A stretch of 49,761 bases of DNA from NCBI GenBank assembly GCA_017405865.1, contig JAFQZN010000035.1:1-49761 (forward strand), read 5' to 3'. This stretch comes from Oscillospiraceae bacterium. Lineage in GTDB: Bacteria; Bacillota; Clostridia; Oscillospirales; Oscillospiraceae. Shown piece by piece: positions 1 through 49,761 of the stretch; positions within the stretch are counted from its first letter, which is position 1, and every line of letters begins with the position of its first letter. The notes under the pieces are model-generated. The model searched no databases and was not told the origin of the DNA. It was given only the letters and a program-made list of their open reading frames with translations. A program made the translations under genes and the position numbers.

Positions 1-143
1 CAATTAAAATATTTAATTGAATTTTGCTGTGCTATGCACAGCCTTTTCAGCGCAACGCGCTGAAAAGCCGTCTCATGCAGACTTCGACGCGCCCCCGGCG
101 CTATAAAATGCTTTTTGAAGCATTTTATCGAAGTCTAGTATAA
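1..143 (-). mobile_element. MITE-like hairpin element, copy 1 (left end cut by window edge)
   Basis: This stretch matches 36005-36147 over all 143 bases with four substitutions (positions 7, 34, 35, 95). It holds an AT-rich arm (20s), a GCTGTGC/GCACAGC hairpin, an 11-bp CTTTTCAGCGC hairpin, and an AGACTTCGA/TCGAAGTCT stem that encloses two further hairpins. Every substitution lies in a hairpin loop. It sits downstream of the ribosomal operon end. The first 13 bases of the complete element are missing because the window starts here. No protein is encoded. Confidence 0.8.
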
Positions 144-16245: not shown

Positions 16246-16399
16246 GTGTACTCCATTCGCAGCGATATACGCCACATACACAGATTACCTCAGCCGCCCG
16301 ATGACCGGACATACTCCGCAGAAGTTACCGCCGTTCGGCGCAATCTCCTGCTTCATCGCAGTGCAGGCGCAGAATATCCCTACCCGCGCATGCCACAAT

Positions 16400-35900: not shown

Positions 35901-35910
35901 TCAAGAACAG

Positions 35911-35969
35911 AAAAAGGCTGTGAAGAACGGGAGCGGATCTGCTCCCGTTCTTCACAGCCTCATTATTTT
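35911..35969 (+). terminator. Long hairpin terminator after the lipid-kinase-like gene
   Basis: A perfect 20-bp stem (35915-35934 with 35941-35960, opening AGGCTGTGAAG) closed by GGATCT, followed by an AT-rich run. Confidence 0.8.
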
Positions 35970-35991
35970 ATTCTTCCGGCTCTTTTTCCGC

Positions 35992-36147
35992 TAATACTAA
36001 AATTCAATTAGAATATTTAATTGAATTTTGCTGTGCTGCGCACAGCCTTTTCAGCGCAACGCGCTGAAAAGCCGTCTCATGCAGACTTCGACGCGCCCTC
36101 GGCGCTATAAAATGCTTTTTGAAGCATTTTATCGAAGTCTAGTATAA
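35992..36147 (-). mobile_element. MITE-like hairpin element, copy 2 (complete)
   Basis: A 156-bp element without coding capacity. Its ends form an imperfect terminal inverted repeat: TAATACTAAAATTCAATTA (35992-36010) against the reverse of 36129-36147, 14 of 19 matching. Internal stems: 36001-36010/36018-36027, 36030-36036/36040-36046, 36047-36057/36061-36071, and 36083-36091/36132-36140 enclosing 36093-36097/36101-36105 and 36107-36117/36122-36132 as a three-way junction. Copy 1 is at 1-143 and a fragment at 49477-49502. The right end overlaps the last codons and stop of the YfhO gene. Confidence 0.85.
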
Positions 36148-38895
36148 ACCCTCCGGTTTCTCCTTCGGCGGGTCGGGGAAGAGAACGAATTCCTTCTTCC
36201 GATGCAGCCAAAGCAGCGCGATGAAGGTGAGCAGCGCAGCGGCGGAGATCAGGCAGCCGAGGGTCAGTCCCGGCGCGGTATAGCGCAGGGTGATCGAATG
36301 CATCCCCGCCGTGAGCGGGAAGGCGATCACCGCGTCGGTCAGCTTGACGGATTTGTTCGACGGATCGAAGGTCGCCGCAAGCTCCACTTCTTCTCCGTCC
36401 ACCGTTGCCGTCCAGCCCGGCTCGTACGGCACCGAGGTATAGAACAGGCCGTCGCGCCGCGCGTTGATGATGCCGGACAGCTTGGTGTCCGACGCGTCGG
36501 TCAGCTCCCACGCCTCGTCTGCAAGCTCCGCCCAGCCGCGGCGGAAGGCGTAGTCGTCCATCAGCTCGACGTCCGCCGAGAAGACGCCCGATTCGCCCTG
36601 ATCGACGAAGTAGACCAGCGTAATTTCGTCGCCCGCCGAGATCCAGCCGAGGCTGAACATGCTGCGCGCCTTGATATTGCGGTCAAAGAGGTACACGCCG
36701 TTGTGGTAGCAGGACACCGAGCTGACGTTGGTGAAATTCGTCGTCGCGCAGTAAAGGCCGTCCGCTTCCGCACGGTAGACCACGCTCAAGCTGGAGCGTC
36801 CCGCCGCACGGGTGCAGTTGAAGGAATACTGTGTGCCGGACGTGCCGCCCGCCTCCAGCGTGACGTTTTCATCCGAATGGCGCAGCTCCGAATGCTGCAC
36901 GGGAACGTACAGCGGCTCGTGGACCCCGGTCGCCAGCGCGAACATCTCGTTCTGTTCCCAGATTGGATTGTATTTATCCTCCAGCGCGGAAAAATCCGCC
37001 AGCGCCGAATCGGTCATAAAGCCGACCGAGATGAAATAGTCGTTGCGCAGAAGGTTTGTGCTGCCCTCGGTGGCGATCAGGCTGTTGTACTGCGTGTCGC
37101 GATACTGTCCGTCGCGGTCGAGCAGGTATTTGATGCCGCACATCGCGTTGATAAACGGCGAGGACTCATAGTAGAGGAAGCGGTTGCTCCCCGGCCACGA
37201 CGAGGTGCCGAGCGAGCGCGAGAAGCGATTGAAATTGACATTCGCCGACGAGGTGAAGATCGTCACGCCGTTGTAATTGTTGAGCGCGCCGTCGTTGAGC
37301 GTGTGGGTGTTGGTCGCCTCCGTGCGCCAGAAGAGGGTCTTCCCCTCCTCCAGCTGATTTGCCTTCTCCAGCAGGGTCTGCACCGCCGCGCCGTCCTTCG
37401 GGTAGCCGCTGCGCGAGGTGAACGCGACCTTGTTCGAGCCGACGACAAAGCAGAGGATCATTTCGCAGGAAATGATCGCCGCCAGCAGCGTCAGCGCGAC
37501 GGTGCGGCGCCATTTGCGCTTGCCGTAGATCAGGAAGAAGGCGATCATGCCGGCAAGCACGACAAGCCCCAGAATCACGGATCTCTGTCCGGGCTCCTCC
37601 GCGCCCCAGGCATTCCAGATCAGCAGCCCCGCGAGCGGCACGATGAAAAACAGATACCACTTTTTGAAGCTGTCCATCAGCGTAAAGGCGCGGAAGGCCA
37701 TGCAGATCGTCACGAAGCTGAACAGGAAGCTGAAGCGGTACGGCAGCATATTCGGGAAGTGGAAGCCGTGCCAGACGTAGTCCAGATAGCGGAAGATAAA
37801 GCTCAAAAACAGGAACAGCAGCAGAAAGACGCTGCAGAGCTTTTCGCGCAGGCGGATCTTGCCGCTGCAGCAGAAGCAGATCGCCAGAATGAGCGCGGAT
37901 AAGCCGCAGTATACGTTCGGCAGCCCCTCCATCTTGGTGACGTTGGGCGCGGGCATCAGATTGGTAAAGATCTGCTTTGCCGCATCCCACACCCCGGGCA
38001 GGGTCTGCGTCCAGAGGAAGTGCAGCAGGCTCTCGCCCTCCGGTACGGTGCTGCTGACGCCGCTGGCGATATTCAGGCCAAAAATCGAGACGTCCTTGCT
38101 CTTGGCGGAATTGGTGATTCCCATTGCCTTGAGCGTCGGGATCAGAAGCGCCGCCGCAAGCGCGACGCCGATCAGCGTACAAACGCCGATGCGCAGGAAG
38201 CGCCGCAGGAAGTTCTTCCACCCCTGCCAGCAGACGATGCAGTAGACGATGAAAGTCAGCAACACGAAGATGCAGCAGAAATATGCGATATAGTAGTTGC
38301 ACCACAAAGACAGCGCCAGCGTGATCACGTACAGGCGGAATTTCCCGTCCCGCAGGAGGCAGACCGTCCCCGCGACCAGCAGCGGCAGGAGCGCGAAGGT
38401 GTCCAGCCAGATATTGTTCCAGTAGTAGCCGCAGACCCACGAGCAGAAGGCATACATCAGTCCGAAGAACGCGATGGAAAGATCGTTTCTGCGATAGACG
38501 ATCCGCAGGAAGAGCGCCATGAACAGCCCGGCGCAGGCAATCTTAACAACCGTCAGCAGGGCGAAAAACTCCGTCAGAAGCGAGGCAGGCACCAAAACGC
38601 AAAGCCAGTTTAAGGGGCTTGCCAGATAGTAGGCAAAGAGGGAGGCGTAGCCCGTGCCCATGCCGACGTTCCACGTATACTGCATAGAGCCGCCGGACAG
38701 GAGCTTCTCGCGGAACGCGGAGAAGAACGGATAATACTGGTGCCATTCGTCATGTGCGAGGATCATATTGTCGCCGCACGGATAGACGCCGTCGACGGTA
38801 AATACGATGCACACGATCGCGAAGGGCATCAGAAACGCCAGCAGCAGCGGCAGACGATCTAACCATTTTTTCTTTTTCAACGGGGAAGATTTCAT
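36139..38895 (-). CDS. YfhO-family multispanning membrane protein, first of a tandem pair
   Basis: A 918-residue integral membrane protein of the YfhO family, linked in Firmicutes to glycosylation of wall or lipoteichoic polymers with lipid-linked sugars. The N-terminal half has about a dozen membrane segments and the outward motif HQYYPFFSAFREKLLSGG followed by NVGMGTGYASLFAYYLASPL. The C-terminal 400 residues are an extracellular beta-rich domain (PYEPGWTATVDGEEVELAAT), then one last membrane segment. The start at 38895 follows AGGAGGT. Its stop codon and last two residues are supplied by the MITE-like element. It is paralogous to the next gene. Confidence 0.88.
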   Translation of the reverse strand: MKSSPLKKKKWLDRLPLLLAFLMPFAIVCIVFTVDGVYPCGDNMILAHDEWHQYYPFFSAFREKLLSGGSMQYTWNVGMGTGYASLFAYYLASPLNWLCVLVPASLLTEFFALLTVVKIACAGLFMALFLRIVYRRNDLSIAFFGLMYAFCSWVCGYYWNNIWLDTFALLPLLVAGTVCLLRDGKFRLYVITLALSLWCNYYIAYFCCIFVLLTFIVYCIVCWQGWKNFLRRFLRIGVCTLIGVALAAALLIPTLKAMGITNSAKSKDVSIFGLNIASGVSSTVPEGESLLHFLWTQTLPGVWDAAKQIFTNLMPAPNVTKMEGLPNVYCGLSALILAICFCCSGKIRLREKLCSVFLLLFLFLSFIFRYLDYVWHGFHFPNMLPYRFSFLFSFVTICMAFRAFTLMDSFKKWYLFFIVPLAGLLIWNAWGAEEPGQRSVILGLVVLAGMIAFFLIYGKRKWRRTVALTLLAAIISCEMILCFVVGSNKVAFTSRSGYPKDGAAVQTLLEKANQLEEGKTLFWRTEATNTHTLNDGALNNYNGVTIFTSSANVNFNRFSRSLGTSSWPGSNRFLYYESSPFINAMCGIKYLLDRDGQYRDTQYNSLIATEGSTNLLRNDYFISVGFMTDSALADFSALEDKYNPIWEQNEMFALATGVHEPLYVPVQHSELRHSDENVTLEAGGTSGTQYSFNCTRAAGRSSLSVVYRAEADGLYCATTNFTNVSSVSCYHNGVYLFDRNIKARSMFSLGWISAGDEITLVYFVDQGESGVFSADVELMDDYAFRRGWAELADEAWELTDASDTKLSGIINARRDGLFYTSVPYEPGWTATVDGEEVELAATFDPSNKSVKLTDAVIAFPLTAGMHSITLRYTAPGLTLGCLISAAALLTFIALLWLHRKKEFVLFPDPPKEKPEGLY

Positions 38896-38920
38896 TCTCT
38901 TACCTCCTCTGGGTTTATGG

Positions 38921-38949
38921 AGTATGATTTGCGTCCTTGGCGTTGACAA
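38921..38949 (-). promoter_or_regulatory. Possible promoter carried by a dispersed repeat, upstream of the first yfhO-like gene
   Basis: Minus-strand TTGTCA (inside the repeat), 17-nt spacer, CATACT. The same TTGTCA with AATACT at the same distance occurs at the other copy (29174-29202). Weak -10 box; activity uncertain. Confidence 0.35.
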
Positions 38950-39054
38950 CCCCTCAGTCCTTGCCTTCGGCAAAGCCAGTTCCCCTTGCACAGGGGAGCC
39001 TATCGTGCGGGTCATTCGATAAAGTGTCCCGCATCGAAAGGGACAGATTGCCAC
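38940..39054. repeat. Dispersed repeat, copy B, between the yfhO-like genes
   Basis: Matches the reverse complement of 29071-29184 over its full length. Contains AACCCCTCAGTC, TTGCCTTCGGCAA, a CCCCTTGCACAGGGG hairpin and GGGACAGATTGCCAC. It begins 6 bp after the stop of the upstream yfhO-like gene (minus strand) and fills most of the spacer. Confidence 0.75.
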
Positions 39055-39059
39055 GGTCA

Positions 39060-41828
39060 TCAGCGGGGCTCGGAAGCTGCAGGCGGGTCCGGGAAGAGCG
39101 ATTTTTCCTTCCGGCGCAGGTACAGCAGCGCGCAGAAGACAAACAGGGATACCGCCGAGATCAGCGCGCCGGCAGTCAGTCCCGGCGTCCGGTAGCGCAG
39201 GGTGACCTCGTGCGTTCCCGCGCCGAGCGGGAAGGAGATCACTGCGTCCGTCAGATTGACGGTTTCCGCAGCGGGATCGAAGGTCTGCGCGAGCGCGACC
39301 TCCTCGCCGTCCACGGTTGCCGTCCATCCGGGCTCGTATGGCACAGAGGTGTAAAACAGCCCGTCGTGCAGCGCCGTGACCGTGCCGGAAAGCTCGGTGT
39401 CAGACGCTTTTGTCAGCACCCACGGCTCGTCGGCCAGCGCATGCCAGCCTTGCCAAAGCGCATTTTCGTCCAGCTGCACAACGTCAGCATACAAATATCC
39501 GTACCAGCCGGGATCGACGAAATAGACAAGCTGGATCTCGTCGCCCTCCGACAGCCTGCCGAGGCTGAACGAGCCGCGAGATGAGATATATCGGTCAAAC
39601 CGGAACTGTCCGTTAATATAGACGTAAACCGTGGAGAGATTCGGCAGTCGCGTCGTCGCGTAGCAGAGGCCGTCGGACGGCGCGCGGTAGAACACACTGA
39701 ACGTAGAGCGCCCGGACGCATTGACACAGCTATAGGAGTAATATCGATCCAGCCCTTCATACGGCACGAGCGAGCTTCCCTCGTTCCATGAGAGCAGTTG
39801 CTCACAGGGCAGAGAGACGTACAGCGGTTCCTGTACGCCTGTTGCAAGGCGGAACAGCTCGTTCTGGTCGCGAATCGGATCGTCCGTATTTGCACTCTCG
39901 GAAAATGCGGACAAAGCCGAATCCGCCATGAAGCCGGCGGAAATATAGTAGCTATTGCGCAGCAGATTGACGTTCTCCTCGGTCGCAAGGAGGGTGTTGT
40001 GTACCGGGTCGCGGTACAGCCCTTCGCAGTCGAGCAGATACTGAACGCCGCAGAGCGTATTGGCAAACGGAGAATTCTCCCAATAGAGATACCAGTTGAA
40101 GACCGGCAGGGACGACAAACCGAGCACGGGAGAGAACCGGTTGAAATTCGCGTTGGCGGAGGACGTGAAGATCGAGGCGCCGCGATAGCCGTAGAGCGCG
40201 CCGTCGTTGCGCGACTGCGGGACGGTCAGCTCCGTGCGTCCGAAGCCGTCCGGCGTCTGCGCTGTTTCCAGCAGGGCTTGGATTTCCTTCTCGTCCTTCA
40301 GATATTCGGTTTTTGAGAGATAGTCCGCCTGCTCCACGCCGAAGTGGAAGCAGGAGATCGCCTCGGCGGCGATCACCGCAAACACGATCACAGAGGCAGT
40401 GATCCGGCGCGCCTTCTGCCTGCCGTGGATCAGGAAGGCGGCAACAAGCGCGCAGACGACGGCGATCGCAGCGGTCACGGAGCCAAACTCCGCGTCCCAT
40501 GCGTTCCAGATCAGCAAGCCCGCAACGGGAACGATGATCAAAAGATACCATTTCTTGAAGCTGTCCATCAGCGTGTAGGCGCGGTACGCCATGGCGATCG
40601 TCACAAAGCTGAAGAGGAAGCTGAAGCGGTACGGCAGGCCGTTCGGGAAGTGCAGGCCGTGCCAGAGATAGTCCAGTCTGCGGAAGATGAAGCTCATCAG
40701 CAGGAAAAGCAGCAGGAACACGCTGCACAGCTTCTCGCGCAGACTGACCTTGCCGCAGCAGCAGAAATAGATCGCCAGCACCACGGCGCAGAAGCCGCAG
40801 TAGATATTCGGCAGACCCGCCGGCAGGATCTCGGTGACGGATGGGTCGGGCATGAGGTTGGAGAGGATCGTCCGCGAAGCGCTCCATACGCCGGCAAGAC
40901 CGGTCTCGCCGCCTGCGAGATTTAAGCCCCACTCTCCGTACATCGCTCCGGCGGAGGCATAGGAGTTCTGCATTGCCTTGAGCGTCGGCAGCAGCAGGAC
41001 TGCCGTCAGTCCGAAGGCAAGCAGGGTACACACGCCGATGCGCAGGAAGCGCCGCAGGAGGTTCCTCCACCCCTGCCAGAAGGTAATGCAGTAAGCAAGG
41101 AAGGTCAGCAGGACGAAGATGCAGCTGAAATACGCCAGATAGTAGTTACACCACAGGGACAGCGCCAGCGCGATCACATAAAGGCGATACTTTCCCTCGC
41201 GCAGCAGGCAGACCGTGCCTGCCACCAAAAGCGGCAGCAGGGCGAAGGTGTCCAGCCACATCAGATTCCAGTAGTAGCCCGCCGTCCACGAGCAGAAGGC
41301 GTACAGCAGCGCAAAGAACGCAATGGACAGATCGTTCCTGCGGTAGACGGTTTTGAGGAACAGCGCAAAGAACAGCCCCGCGCAGGCGATCTTCACAACG
41401 GTCAGCAGGGCGTAAAACTCCAAAAGCGCGGAGGACGGCACCAGAACGCAAAGCCAGTTCAGCGGGCTTGCAAGATAGTAGGCGTAGAGGGAGGCGTAGC
41501 CCGTCCCCATGCCGACGTCCCGCGTATACTGCAGGGAGCCGCCGGTCATCAGCTTTTCGCGGAACGCCTTGAAAAACGGATAATACTGCTTCCAGCCGTC
41601 CTGTACCAGGATCGTCTTATCGCCGAAGGGAGAGATCTCCGCAAGCGCAAAGATCACGAGCGCCGCAGCGAACGGCAGGAAAAACGCCAGCAGCAGCGGC
41701 AGCCGACTGCTGTACCGCTTTGCTAACGGCGATCCGGTTTCCGGCGACGGCGCGGCAGCGCTTCTGTTTTTTTCCCTGCCGCTGCCTTTCCTGTATTGTG
41801 ATCTCTTTTTCGATGAGGAAGTTTTCAT
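39060..41828 (-). CDS. YfhO-family multispanning membrane protein, second of a tandem pair
   Basis: A 922-residue paralogue of the neighbouring gene with the same order: basic N terminus (MKTSSSKKRSQYRKGSGREK), membrane bundle with KQYYPFFKAFREKLMTGG and DVGMGTGYASLYAYYLASPL, extracellular C-terminal domain with PYEPGWTATVDGEEVALAQT, and a terminal membrane helix. Membrane segments are nearly identical between the two while the middle of the extracellular domain differs more. Its ATG overlaps the stop of the pyridoxamine kinase gene (ATGA), so the two are cotranslated. Confidence 0.88.
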   Translation of the reverse strand: MKTSSSKKRSQYRKGSGREKNRSAAAPSPETGSPLAKRYSSRLPLLLAFFLPFAAALVIFALAEISPFGDKTILVQDGWKQYYPFFKAFREKLMTGGSLQYTRDVGMGTGYASLYAYYLASPLNWLCVLVPSSALLEFYALLTVVKIACAGLFFALFLKTVYRRNDLSIAFFALLYAFCSWTAGYYWNLMWLDTFALLPLLVAGTVCLLREGKYRLYVIALALSLWCNYYLAYFSCIFVLLTFLAYCITFWQGWRNLLRRFLRIGVCTLLAFGLTAVLLLPTLKAMQNSYASAGAMYGEWGLNLAGGETGLAGVWSASRTILSNLMPDPSVTEILPAGLPNIYCGFCAVVLAIYFCCCGKVSLREKLCSVFLLLFLLMSFIFRRLDYLWHGLHFPNGLPYRFSFLFSFVTIAMAYRAYTLMDSFKKWYLLIIVPVAGLLIWNAWDAEFGSVTAAIAVVCALVAAFLIHGRQKARRITASVIVFAVIAAEAISCFHFGVEQADYLSKTEYLKDEKEIQALLETAQTPDGFGRTELTVPQSRNDGALYGYRGASIFTSSANANFNRFSPVLGLSSLPVFNWYLYWENSPFANTLCGVQYLLDCEGLYRDPVHNTLLATEENVNLLRNSYYISAGFMADSALSAFSESANTDDPIRDQNELFRLATGVQEPLYVSLPCEQLLSWNEGSSLVPYEGLDRYYSYSCVNASGRSTFSVFYRAPSDGLCYATTRLPNLSTVYVYINGQFRFDRYISSRGSFSLGRLSEGDEIQLVYFVDPGWYGYLYADVVQLDENALWQGWHALADEPWVLTKASDTELSGTVTALHDGLFYTSVPYEPGWTATVDGEEVALAQTFDPAAETVNLTDAVISFPLGAGTHEVTLRYRTPGLTAGALISAVSLFVFCALLYLRRKEKSLFPDPPAASEPR

Positions 41829-49476: not shown

Positions 49477-49502
49477 TTATACCAGACTTCGATAAAATGC
49501 TT
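49477..49502 (+). mobile_element. MITE-like element fragment, copy 3
   Basis: TTATACCAGACTTCGATAAA followed by ATGCTT is the reverse complement of the right end of copies 1 and 2 (36122-36147) with one mismatch. It begins 1 bp after the stop of the flavodiiron gene and breaks off at TCCTG. Only the terminal repeat, one arm of the closing stem and one hairpin arm survive. Confidence 0.75.
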
Positions 49503-49541
49503 TCCTGATTTTGACGGTTACGGACTTTTTGGACAGTCTGA

Positions 49542-49585: not shown

Positions 49586-49761
49586 ATGCGTGATCGGAAT
49601 GTGCATTCATTCTATGAGCAGGATCTGCGGGACTATTCCCCGGAAGATGAAACACGGCAGATGCTGAAAATTCAGAGCCGTCTGTATGAGCGAACGCTCA
49701 ACTCCAGCGTTTCACTTCGCAACGGATTAATCTCTCTGCTGGATCAAACCTTTCCCGGCGC
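49586..49761 (+). pseudogene. IS110-family transposase fragment, 5'-truncated, runs off the window
   Basis: An open frame from ATG 49586 with an in-frame stop (TAA at 49574) just before it encodes HSFYEQDLRDYSPEDETRQ, then LYERTLNSSVSLRNGLISLL and DQTFPG. The spacing of YSPEDExRQxLK and LxxLLDQTFPG matches the middle of IS110-family transposases, around 110 residues after the normal start. The DEDD catalytic N-terminal part is absent, so the copy is probably a remnant; the 3' part is not visible. Confidence 0.6.

Follow-up and report, generated by a model that had tools for sequence, protein, structure and literature searches.

A hairpin-built, MITE-like element with a duplicated TNA target in genomes of uncultured Clostridia

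What is a 150-bp stretch that recurs nearly unchanged within one contig and folds into six stems: a mobile element, a structured RNA, or a mobile element whose structure is required as DNA? This question is raised by the window, the whole stretch of 49,761 nucleotides analyzed here, which represents contig 37 of a metagenome-assembled genome (MAG) of an Oscillospiraceae bacterium comprising 83 contigs and 2.08 Mb. A preliminary description, made from the letters of the window, had noted a MITE-like element with terminal inverted repeats and proposed that selection acts on a DNA or RNA structure. Our analysis favors, with a probability of about 0.72, a non-autonomous MITE-like transposon that is moved in trans and whose hairpins are needed in DNA, the element being part of a superfamily within one family of uncultured Clostridia (Oscillospiraceae/Ruminococcaceae according to record titles). 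The existence of a superfamily of hairpin-built, MITE-like elements, for which we found no description, is well-supported.

The element, its copies and its target site

The complete element, TACTA...TAGTA, spans positions 35995..36144 (plus strand, 150 bp) and is flanked by a duplicated TAA, the left and right copies of this target-site duplication being located at 35992..35994 and 36145..36147. It reaches 171 bits against the covariance model R1, a match that is not independent since the R1 training set includes this copy. The left end (35995..36012, plus strand) agrees with the signature TACTR-N6-RWTNAAA except at element position 17, where G replaces A, and likewise shows one mismatch to the related end pattern; the right end (36127..36144) carries the same signature on the minus strand. 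A second copy is located at 1..140 (plus strand, TAA at 141-143), with its first ten bases lost to the contig start, and a right-end fragment of a third copy at 49477..49502 (minus strand) is identical in 25 of 26 bases. Thus, all three copies named in the preliminary description were recovered, and the two long ones indeed differ exactly at positions 7, 34, 35, and 95. Its imperfect terminal inverted repeat is real as well, but the figure of 19 bp with 14 matches included the 3-bp target duplication; the own ends of the element agree at 13 of 18 positions. Being short (150 bp), devoid of coding capacity and bounded by terminal inverted repeats, the element displays the traits of a MITE. The repetition holds beyond the window, although a frequency of three times in 50 kb does not describe it: the MAG contains in total 24 copies of 140-156 bp each, plus fragments. 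Contig ends cut into seven of these 24 copies, as expected because repeats break the assembly.

Mobility was evaluated on 124 listed copies from the own genome and from relatives, which reduced to 107 distinct copies, 106 of them with both flanks. The flanking triplets are identical in 74 of these 106, and all 74 are TNA (TGA 32, TAA 29, TCA 9, TTA 4). The 32 copies without matching triplets, some of which look mis-bounded or decayed, count against the preferred reading. Within the own genome, 16 of the 17 both-ended copies have matching TNA flanks, the exception (L006) having TAA on one side and TCA on the other. The middle base of TNA differs among near-identical copies, yet left equals right copy by copy; this is therefore a true duplication. 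Comparison with an empty site, as suggested in the preliminary description, became possible through a nested insertion in genome G014, where another small repeat is filled in copy L055 (CGTTTTAT-TAA-[element]-TAA-GAATTAG) and intact at the same point in copy L275 (CGTTTTAT-TAA-GAATTAG). The converse pair, an insertion in L275 that is absent from L055, is less exact, with TTA duplicated and TTG in the intact copy; L275 holds two tandem copies with one common TTA. The MITE-like character is thus borne out by 3-bp TNA duplications, conserved ends, one clean filled/empty pair, dispersed copies, and many relatives.

The insertion sites share more than the triplet. Counted in the frame of the element, 65 of the 74 copies with duplicated triplets have T or A at base -5, and base -4 is C in 40, T in 19, G in 13, and A in 2, with no comparable base preference on the right side of the same 74 copies. 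The same pattern at -5 and -4 persists when only the 48 copies are considered in which the TNA does not terminate an open frame of at least 70 codons. This one-sided preference therefore defines a directional target, 5'-WYTRA-3'. On the evidence of the aligned sites, the element inserts at 5'-WYTNA-3' (usually TRA), duplicates TNA, and takes one orientation relative to the target. The GC skew of the own genome, considered with regard to a replication-strand bias of the copies, is weak.

The signature TACTR-N6-RWTNAAA is present at both ends, each of which forms a hairpin arm. Together with the preceding TNA, it is matched in 34 of 36 element-bearing genomes with up to 126 matches per genome. 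The generic end pattern TNATACTRNNNNNNRWTNAAA yielded 37 matches in the own genome, 126 in G014, and 103 in G209, compared with 0-2 control matches per genome and strand; the 36 genomes scanned with it had been chosen for carrying the element, and two of them gave no match. Left and right ends of 17 family representatives showed no resemblance beyond the shared consensus (permutation p 0.24), and a co-evolution of both ends was dropped as not significant. A single DDE enzyme that binds both ends is therefore a hypothesis only, and this counts against the preferred reading.

A search with R1, corresponding to the covariance-model search proposed in the preliminary description, detected relatives in 30 out of 200 genomes of the family and in eight out of 394 genomes of the order, two of the eight being outside the family. 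Owing to strict filters in both searches, these numbers represent minima. Scanning the genome collection with a pattern retrieved 88 stretches: 78 in MAGs labelled Oscillospiraceae, Ruminococcaceae, Clostridia, Clostridiales, Eubacteriales or Bacillota (some of these labels name goat or reindeer), seven in a MAG labelled Pyramidobacter, and three from other phyla. R1 confirms 83 of the 88 (76 of the first 80 and seven of the other eight); L138, L145, L162, L163, and L189, without an R1 match, were discarded as chance pattern matches. In the MAG of Pyramidobacter sp. RGIG8893, by name a member of another phylum, the element is found at L109, L128, L157, L173, L188, L190, and L194; horizontal transfer, mislabelling, and a mixed bin are three options to account for these loci. 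Plasmids and phages (blastn with the window copy) and viral contigs (exact core pattern) gave no match. Rfam and the open-licence literature on MITEs, TNA duplications, structured repeats, and ruminococci provided no name for the element, which the preliminary description had not recognized either.

Further repeats were observed in the vicinity of the element and its relatives. A second repeat (49494-49541), ending in ...TTTTGACGGTTACGGACTTTTTTGACAGTCTGA, recurs elsewhere in the genome with ~39 matches. Of the 40 matches listed, at least 21 have a contig end within 260 bases, and the repeat is therefore probably part of a longer, assembly-breaking one. A related end, TTTTTTGACAGTCTG, lies inside an element copy in G209 (L269). 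An open frame at 49586-49759, adjoining the contig end, weakly matches the IS110 transposase family (E 7e-4, below the cut-off), and the DNA of this region recurs at the end of contig 43. A palindrome-rich intergenic repeat (CTTCCCCTGGGAGGGGAAGG ... GGATGAGGTGG ... CCACCTCATC) at 144-300 adjoins copy 1, and a similar stretch adjoins the fragment L025. L047, L222, and L275 (in G010, G094, and G014, respectively) represent another type of element that shares the ends but not the body, in some cases with a GTTGTACAATACTTTTCTTG region; well over ten of its paired ends are among the G014 matches listed, and the 150-bp element nests within it. Moreover, L273, L081, and L028 (G014, own genome) are palindromic elements of ~40-50 bp with TACTA-like ends on both sides, resembling the left-end hairpin alone. 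The sole Rfam match above the gathering score within the window is an S10-Clostridia ribosomal protein leader (16291-16364, minus strand).

The fold and the level at which it is kept

According to the predicted folds and the aligned relatives, the element body is built as P1-P2-P3-CGTCTCAT-(P4,P5,P6), all parts being given here for the plus strand of the 36-kb copy. The AT-rich hairpin P1 (35999..36029), whose 5' arm is the left end, is followed by P2 (36030..36046) and P3 (36047..36071). The linker CGTCTCAT (36073..36080), of which the last base is paired and the rest unpaired, leads into a three-way junction (36080..36144), in which stem P4, its 3' arm being the right end, surrounds P5 (36093-36105) and P6 (36108-36131). 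P1 is assigned by the fold; P2, P3, and the junction with P4, P5, and P6 by fold and covariation, with P3 including a compensated T-A/A-T change tied to the loop sequence; and the linker by conservation over 28 rows. Compared with shuffles, the 36-kb copy folds with z-scores of -8.8 as RNA, -8.9 on the other strand, and -9.7 as DNA. In each of these three tests, none of 200 shuffled sequences folds as well, which confirms the six stems with a three-way junction of the preliminary description. P1, at least two middle hairpins, and the right junction occur together in the minimum free energy folds of 74 out of 106 copies that are 120-200 bases long; that both numbers equal those of the triplet count is a coincidence.

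Covariation was determined in an alignment of 28 rows (27 distinct), in which the inner part of P1 through to P6 was set by hand. Paired cells amount to 94.4% of this alignment, with slid control structures reaching at most 41%, and both sides have changed in 23 of 52 pairs. The covariation score of 0.297 compares with 0.122 for shuffled and at most 0.068 for slid structures. The only such measure not above shuffles was the number of further pair types (39 vs. 42). RNAalifold alone found double changes in 21 of 39 pairs. Distant relatives follow the same plan with quite different stem sequences, while P5 is absent or an extra hairpin present in L220, L223, and similar loci. Between P3 and P4, the linker CGTCTCAT is nearly invariant: C79, G80, T81, and T86 are invariant over the 28 rows, C82, T83, and C84 reach at least 90%, and A85 is sometimes G. 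Taken together, a constrained fold is strongly supported by covariation across genera.

Among the 24 copies of the MAG, variation affects 18 of 118 positions in stems and 21 of 32 outside them (Fisher p 7e-8). Of the cells departing from the commonest stem pair, 12 are compensated, 11 of which represent one shared change; the mismatched ones are G·T in four cases, A·C in three, and of other kinds in nine. The counting script also scored as broken two A-T cells, located at a foot pair where G·T is otherwise found. The earlier notion that every stem base is unchanged survives insofar as variation is concentrated outside the stems, which are nevertheless not invariant. Similarly, where the two long copies differ, positions 34, 35, and 95 are located in loops as proposed, but position 7, corresponding to element position 17, is part of the P1 stem, and the change there converts an A-T pair into G·T. 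Private changes are rarer in stems (0.12 per site) than in unpaired positions (0.53). Since they are not equally dense, the explanation of stem changes as mere post-insertion decay was dropped. A purely transposition-level constraint alone does not predict this rarity, which is a point against the preferred reading.

A count of mismatches bears on the molecule in which the stems are kept: a transcript under selection would be expected to tolerate G·U, but not A·C. In three overlapping alignments, G·T and A·C in the stems numbered 13:14, 28:40, and 20:17; these alignments have copies in common and are thus not independent, and identical rows were counted once. Alignments A2 and A3 retained 74 of 113 and 40 of 50 rows, respectively, after removal of rows that had under 30 cells or a Watson-Crick share below 80%. 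Foot pairs of P4 were excluded as well, including the one in A4 that is G·T in 19 of 27 sequences. The acceptor and T stems of tRNAs from the same loci gave 20:2, a control built from 19 of 44 predicted tRNAs after exclusion of repeats and of those without clean acceptor/T stems; its filter treats G·T as paired and thereby slightly favors G·T. With G·T about as frequent as A·C in the element and ten times as frequent in tRNAs, the stems are therefore best read as being held as DNA palindromes rather than as RNA. Of the selection on a DNA or RNA structure proposed earlier, the constrained fold stands, and a DNA-level constraint or a DNA-level self-correction of palindromes would fit; the RNA half finds no support in this count or in Rfam, where no family matched.

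Such self-correction leads to an alternative that we consider unlikely as the whole explanation, though it has to be taken seriously: template switching between the arms could keep the palindromes, so that no selection on structure is needed and the element is an ordinary MITE. The strict Watson-Crick compensation without wobble agrees with it, and so does pair 54/76 of P3. Within the own genome, the 11 copies with T-A have the loop AAC (9) or AGC (2), and the 13 copies with A-T all have GTT, the reverse complement of AAC. Homogenization of hairpin arms and inversion of the spacer are described in PMC8604942, and compensation tied to loop inversion is, following the account in PMC8794818, the strongest possible support for template switching. 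The single linked stem/loop event in P3 is thus suggestive of such a switch. As a general rule, loop inversion was dropped, with reverse-complement loop pairs in 3 of 273 cases and controls giving 4 (reverse) and 4 (complement). Homogenization alone, moreover, leaves the cross-genus stem order, the three-way junction, and CGTCTCAT unexplained. It is likely that both causes act, a need for hairpins in the DNA during transposition and arm homogenization by template switching.

Candidate enzymes and mode of movement

In our preferred reading of a MITE-like transposon moved in trans, a transposase supplied in trans would bind both ends and would need the hairpins in DNA, as extruded cruciform or as single strand, to move the element. 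Because hairpins would be needed for movement, stems would be kept while loops drift, and arm homogenization by template switching would probably help to keep the arms identical. A search for an autonomous partner across loci totalling 1.0 Mb, with some overlap, revealed no pair of ends separated by 230-3500 bp, which counts against this reading; the scan was strict and insensitive, recovering only 23 short pairs. The generic end pattern, applied to 36 genomes and then to four again, gave no partner with matching ends among the matches listed, and the regions around unpaired ends held no autonomous partner. In G014, two ends 1.3 kb apart and flanked by matching triplets turned out to belong to two separate small elements. 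Several unpaired ends are located within ~160 bases of a contig end, and draft MAGs may lack the partner.

A DDE transposase of the IS5 family (IS1031 type) is one candidate, with the element as its MITE. DUF4096, a mark of the IS1031 type, was detected in none of 16 element-bearing genomes. The Pfam family DDE_Tnp_1 is missing from the own genome and present in 7 of 17 genus genomes, its 12 loci showing no paired TACTR ends, and DDE_Tnp_4 gave nothing above the cut-off in 16 genomes. The target speaks for this candidate, as IS1031 members prefer TNA and generate an exact 3-bp duplication according to the description in PMC12016507. The TACTR ends, in turn, are unlike the one IS1031 end compared, GAACCTG... 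(PMC12016507), and we infer that a directional target would be unusual for a symmetric DDE complex. We thus regard an IS1031-type origin as rather unlikely.

The one-sided target draws attention to a different class, since a directional target of this kind is a mark of IS200/IS605. These elements are not known to create a target duplication, and a 3-bp duplication with a middle base matching left and right is not expected of them. A REP-like element mobilized in single-stranded form by a RAYT-type Y1/HUH transposase would account for hairpin ends with short tags and for the directional flanking target. The own genome encodes a RAYT-like protein scoring 67 bits with NCBIfam REP_Tyr_transpos (cut-off 80), and REPs located behind genes, with stop codons supplied by the repeat end, are reported in PMC3733652. 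The gene of the RAYT-like protein (L286, contig 22, 12029-12277) is situated ~3.5 kb from one element copy. All this is opposed by the duplicated TNA with its copy-specific middle base, which is at odds with an IS200/IS605 derivative, and by the distribution of Y1_Tnp, which was detected in eight of 16 element-bearing genomes and not found in the other eight, among them the near-complete carriers G118 (100% complete) and G142 (99%). In addition, at the 10 loci with Y1 genes that were inspected, the ~1.5 kb around these genes contained no end signature and, in one case (L280), an isolated CGTCTCAT. A RAYT-driven movement is accordingly improbable in our estimation.

As a whole, the element matches neither the IS1031 nor the IS200/IS605 family, and how it moves, given hairpin ends together with a one-sided target and a 3-bp duplication, is a puzzle. 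One may speculate, with little expectation of being right, on a transposition outside the known classes that uses folded single-strand or cruciform DNA and a one-sided WYTRA target, yet leaves a DDE-like 3-bp duplication. If this were true, stop codons would constitute a natural landing site that spares the gene.

Gene context and comparison with known systems

Genes were called with a home-made codon model trained on the own genome (coding fraction of the window 0.90). Exactly on the stop codon of a gene are 7 of 17 insertions in the own genome, compared with 225 stop codons among 2330 non-coding TNA sites in the stretches examined (binomial p 4e-4 for the 16 non-coding insertions). Spacers between divergent genes received no insertion though holding 795 of the 2330 sites (p 1e-3, same 16 insertions). 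The others are distributed over co-directional spacers (7), a convergent spacer (1), a contig edge (1), and a coding region (1). This single coding insertion is the 36-kb copy, whose right end supplies the TAG (36139..36141, minus strand) of a YfhO-type gene (36139-39327, minus strand); without the element, the minus-strand frame would be ~24 bases longer. In the wider set, TNA ends an open frame of at least 70 codons in 26 of 74 copies and in 53 of 296 off-frame controls. Part of the 26 is therefore due to chance, and the smaller excess in the wider set was counted against the preferred reading. The earlier statement that the right end of each copy faces the 3' end of a gene describes a tendency (16 of 21 callable right neighbors) rather than a rule; among the left neighbors of the 24 copies, 14 of 19 callable ones have their 3' end toward the element. 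For a MITE-like transposon, insertion on a stop codon would leave the protein intact, copies may survive mainly behind genes because TNA coincides with the stops TAA and TGA, and insertions between divergent genes would be lost.

It is most unlikely that the element is a structured non-coding RNA gene or a 3'-UTR motif (terminator, mRNA stabilizer) of incidental dispersal: strong fold and covariation, a linker CGTCTCAT conserved though unpaired, and a location behind genes would suit it, as would the about half of Bacillus cereus bcr repeats placed within transcripts by PMC3446304, but G·T does not exceed A·C on either strand, unlike in tRNA, the orientation to the gene is not fixed (5 along and 2 opposite among the 7 stop-codon insertions), the element has its own target duplication, and Rfam 15 gives no element match above the gathering score, its only nearby hits being sub-threshold miRNA families on the neighboring hairpin at 35908-35972.

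For genomics, the data show that uncultured Clostridia harbor an extensive set of structured mobile repeats, with copies often at contig ends (7 of 24 in this MAG). They also urge caution: a repeat with strong covariation is not necessarily an RNA, and a count of G·T versus A·C separates both cases.

Among known systems, bcr1 is about 155 bp long and folds in a conserved manner. The repeats bcr1-bcr3 of the Bacillus cereus group are, as characterized in PMC3446304, intergenic, multi-copy, called MITE-like, and often found in UTRs, a likeness by description and not by sequence comparison. The present element differs by its host group, its TNA duplication, its directional target, and the evidence against an RNA-level constraint. 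MITEs of the IS5/IS1031 type share the 3-bp TNA duplication (PMC12016507); here, the transposase was not found in the genomes tested, the ends are different, the target is directional, and the body is a conserved multi-hairpin. GTAG and CGTC REPs are palindromes behind genes, between convergent or co-directional ones; GTAG ends supply stop codons, and the CGTC kind has a CGTC tag and no dedicated transposase in the account of PMC3733652. Compared with these single palindromes of 20-40 bp, the element is larger (~150 bp), comprises six stems between two matching ends, and duplicates its target, and it shares neither the 20-40 bp tagged palindrome nor, judged from the 10 Y1 loci, a RAYT flanked by the repeat. 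QMITE2 of Coxiella and BOX, RUP, and SPRITE of Streptococcus pneumoniae resemble it as small structured mobile repeats (PMC10969869). By description, QMITE2 is set apart through direct repeats of 7-9 bp and inverted repeats of 23-29 bp (PMC10969869). BOX, RUP, and SPRITE nest in one another (PMC10969869).
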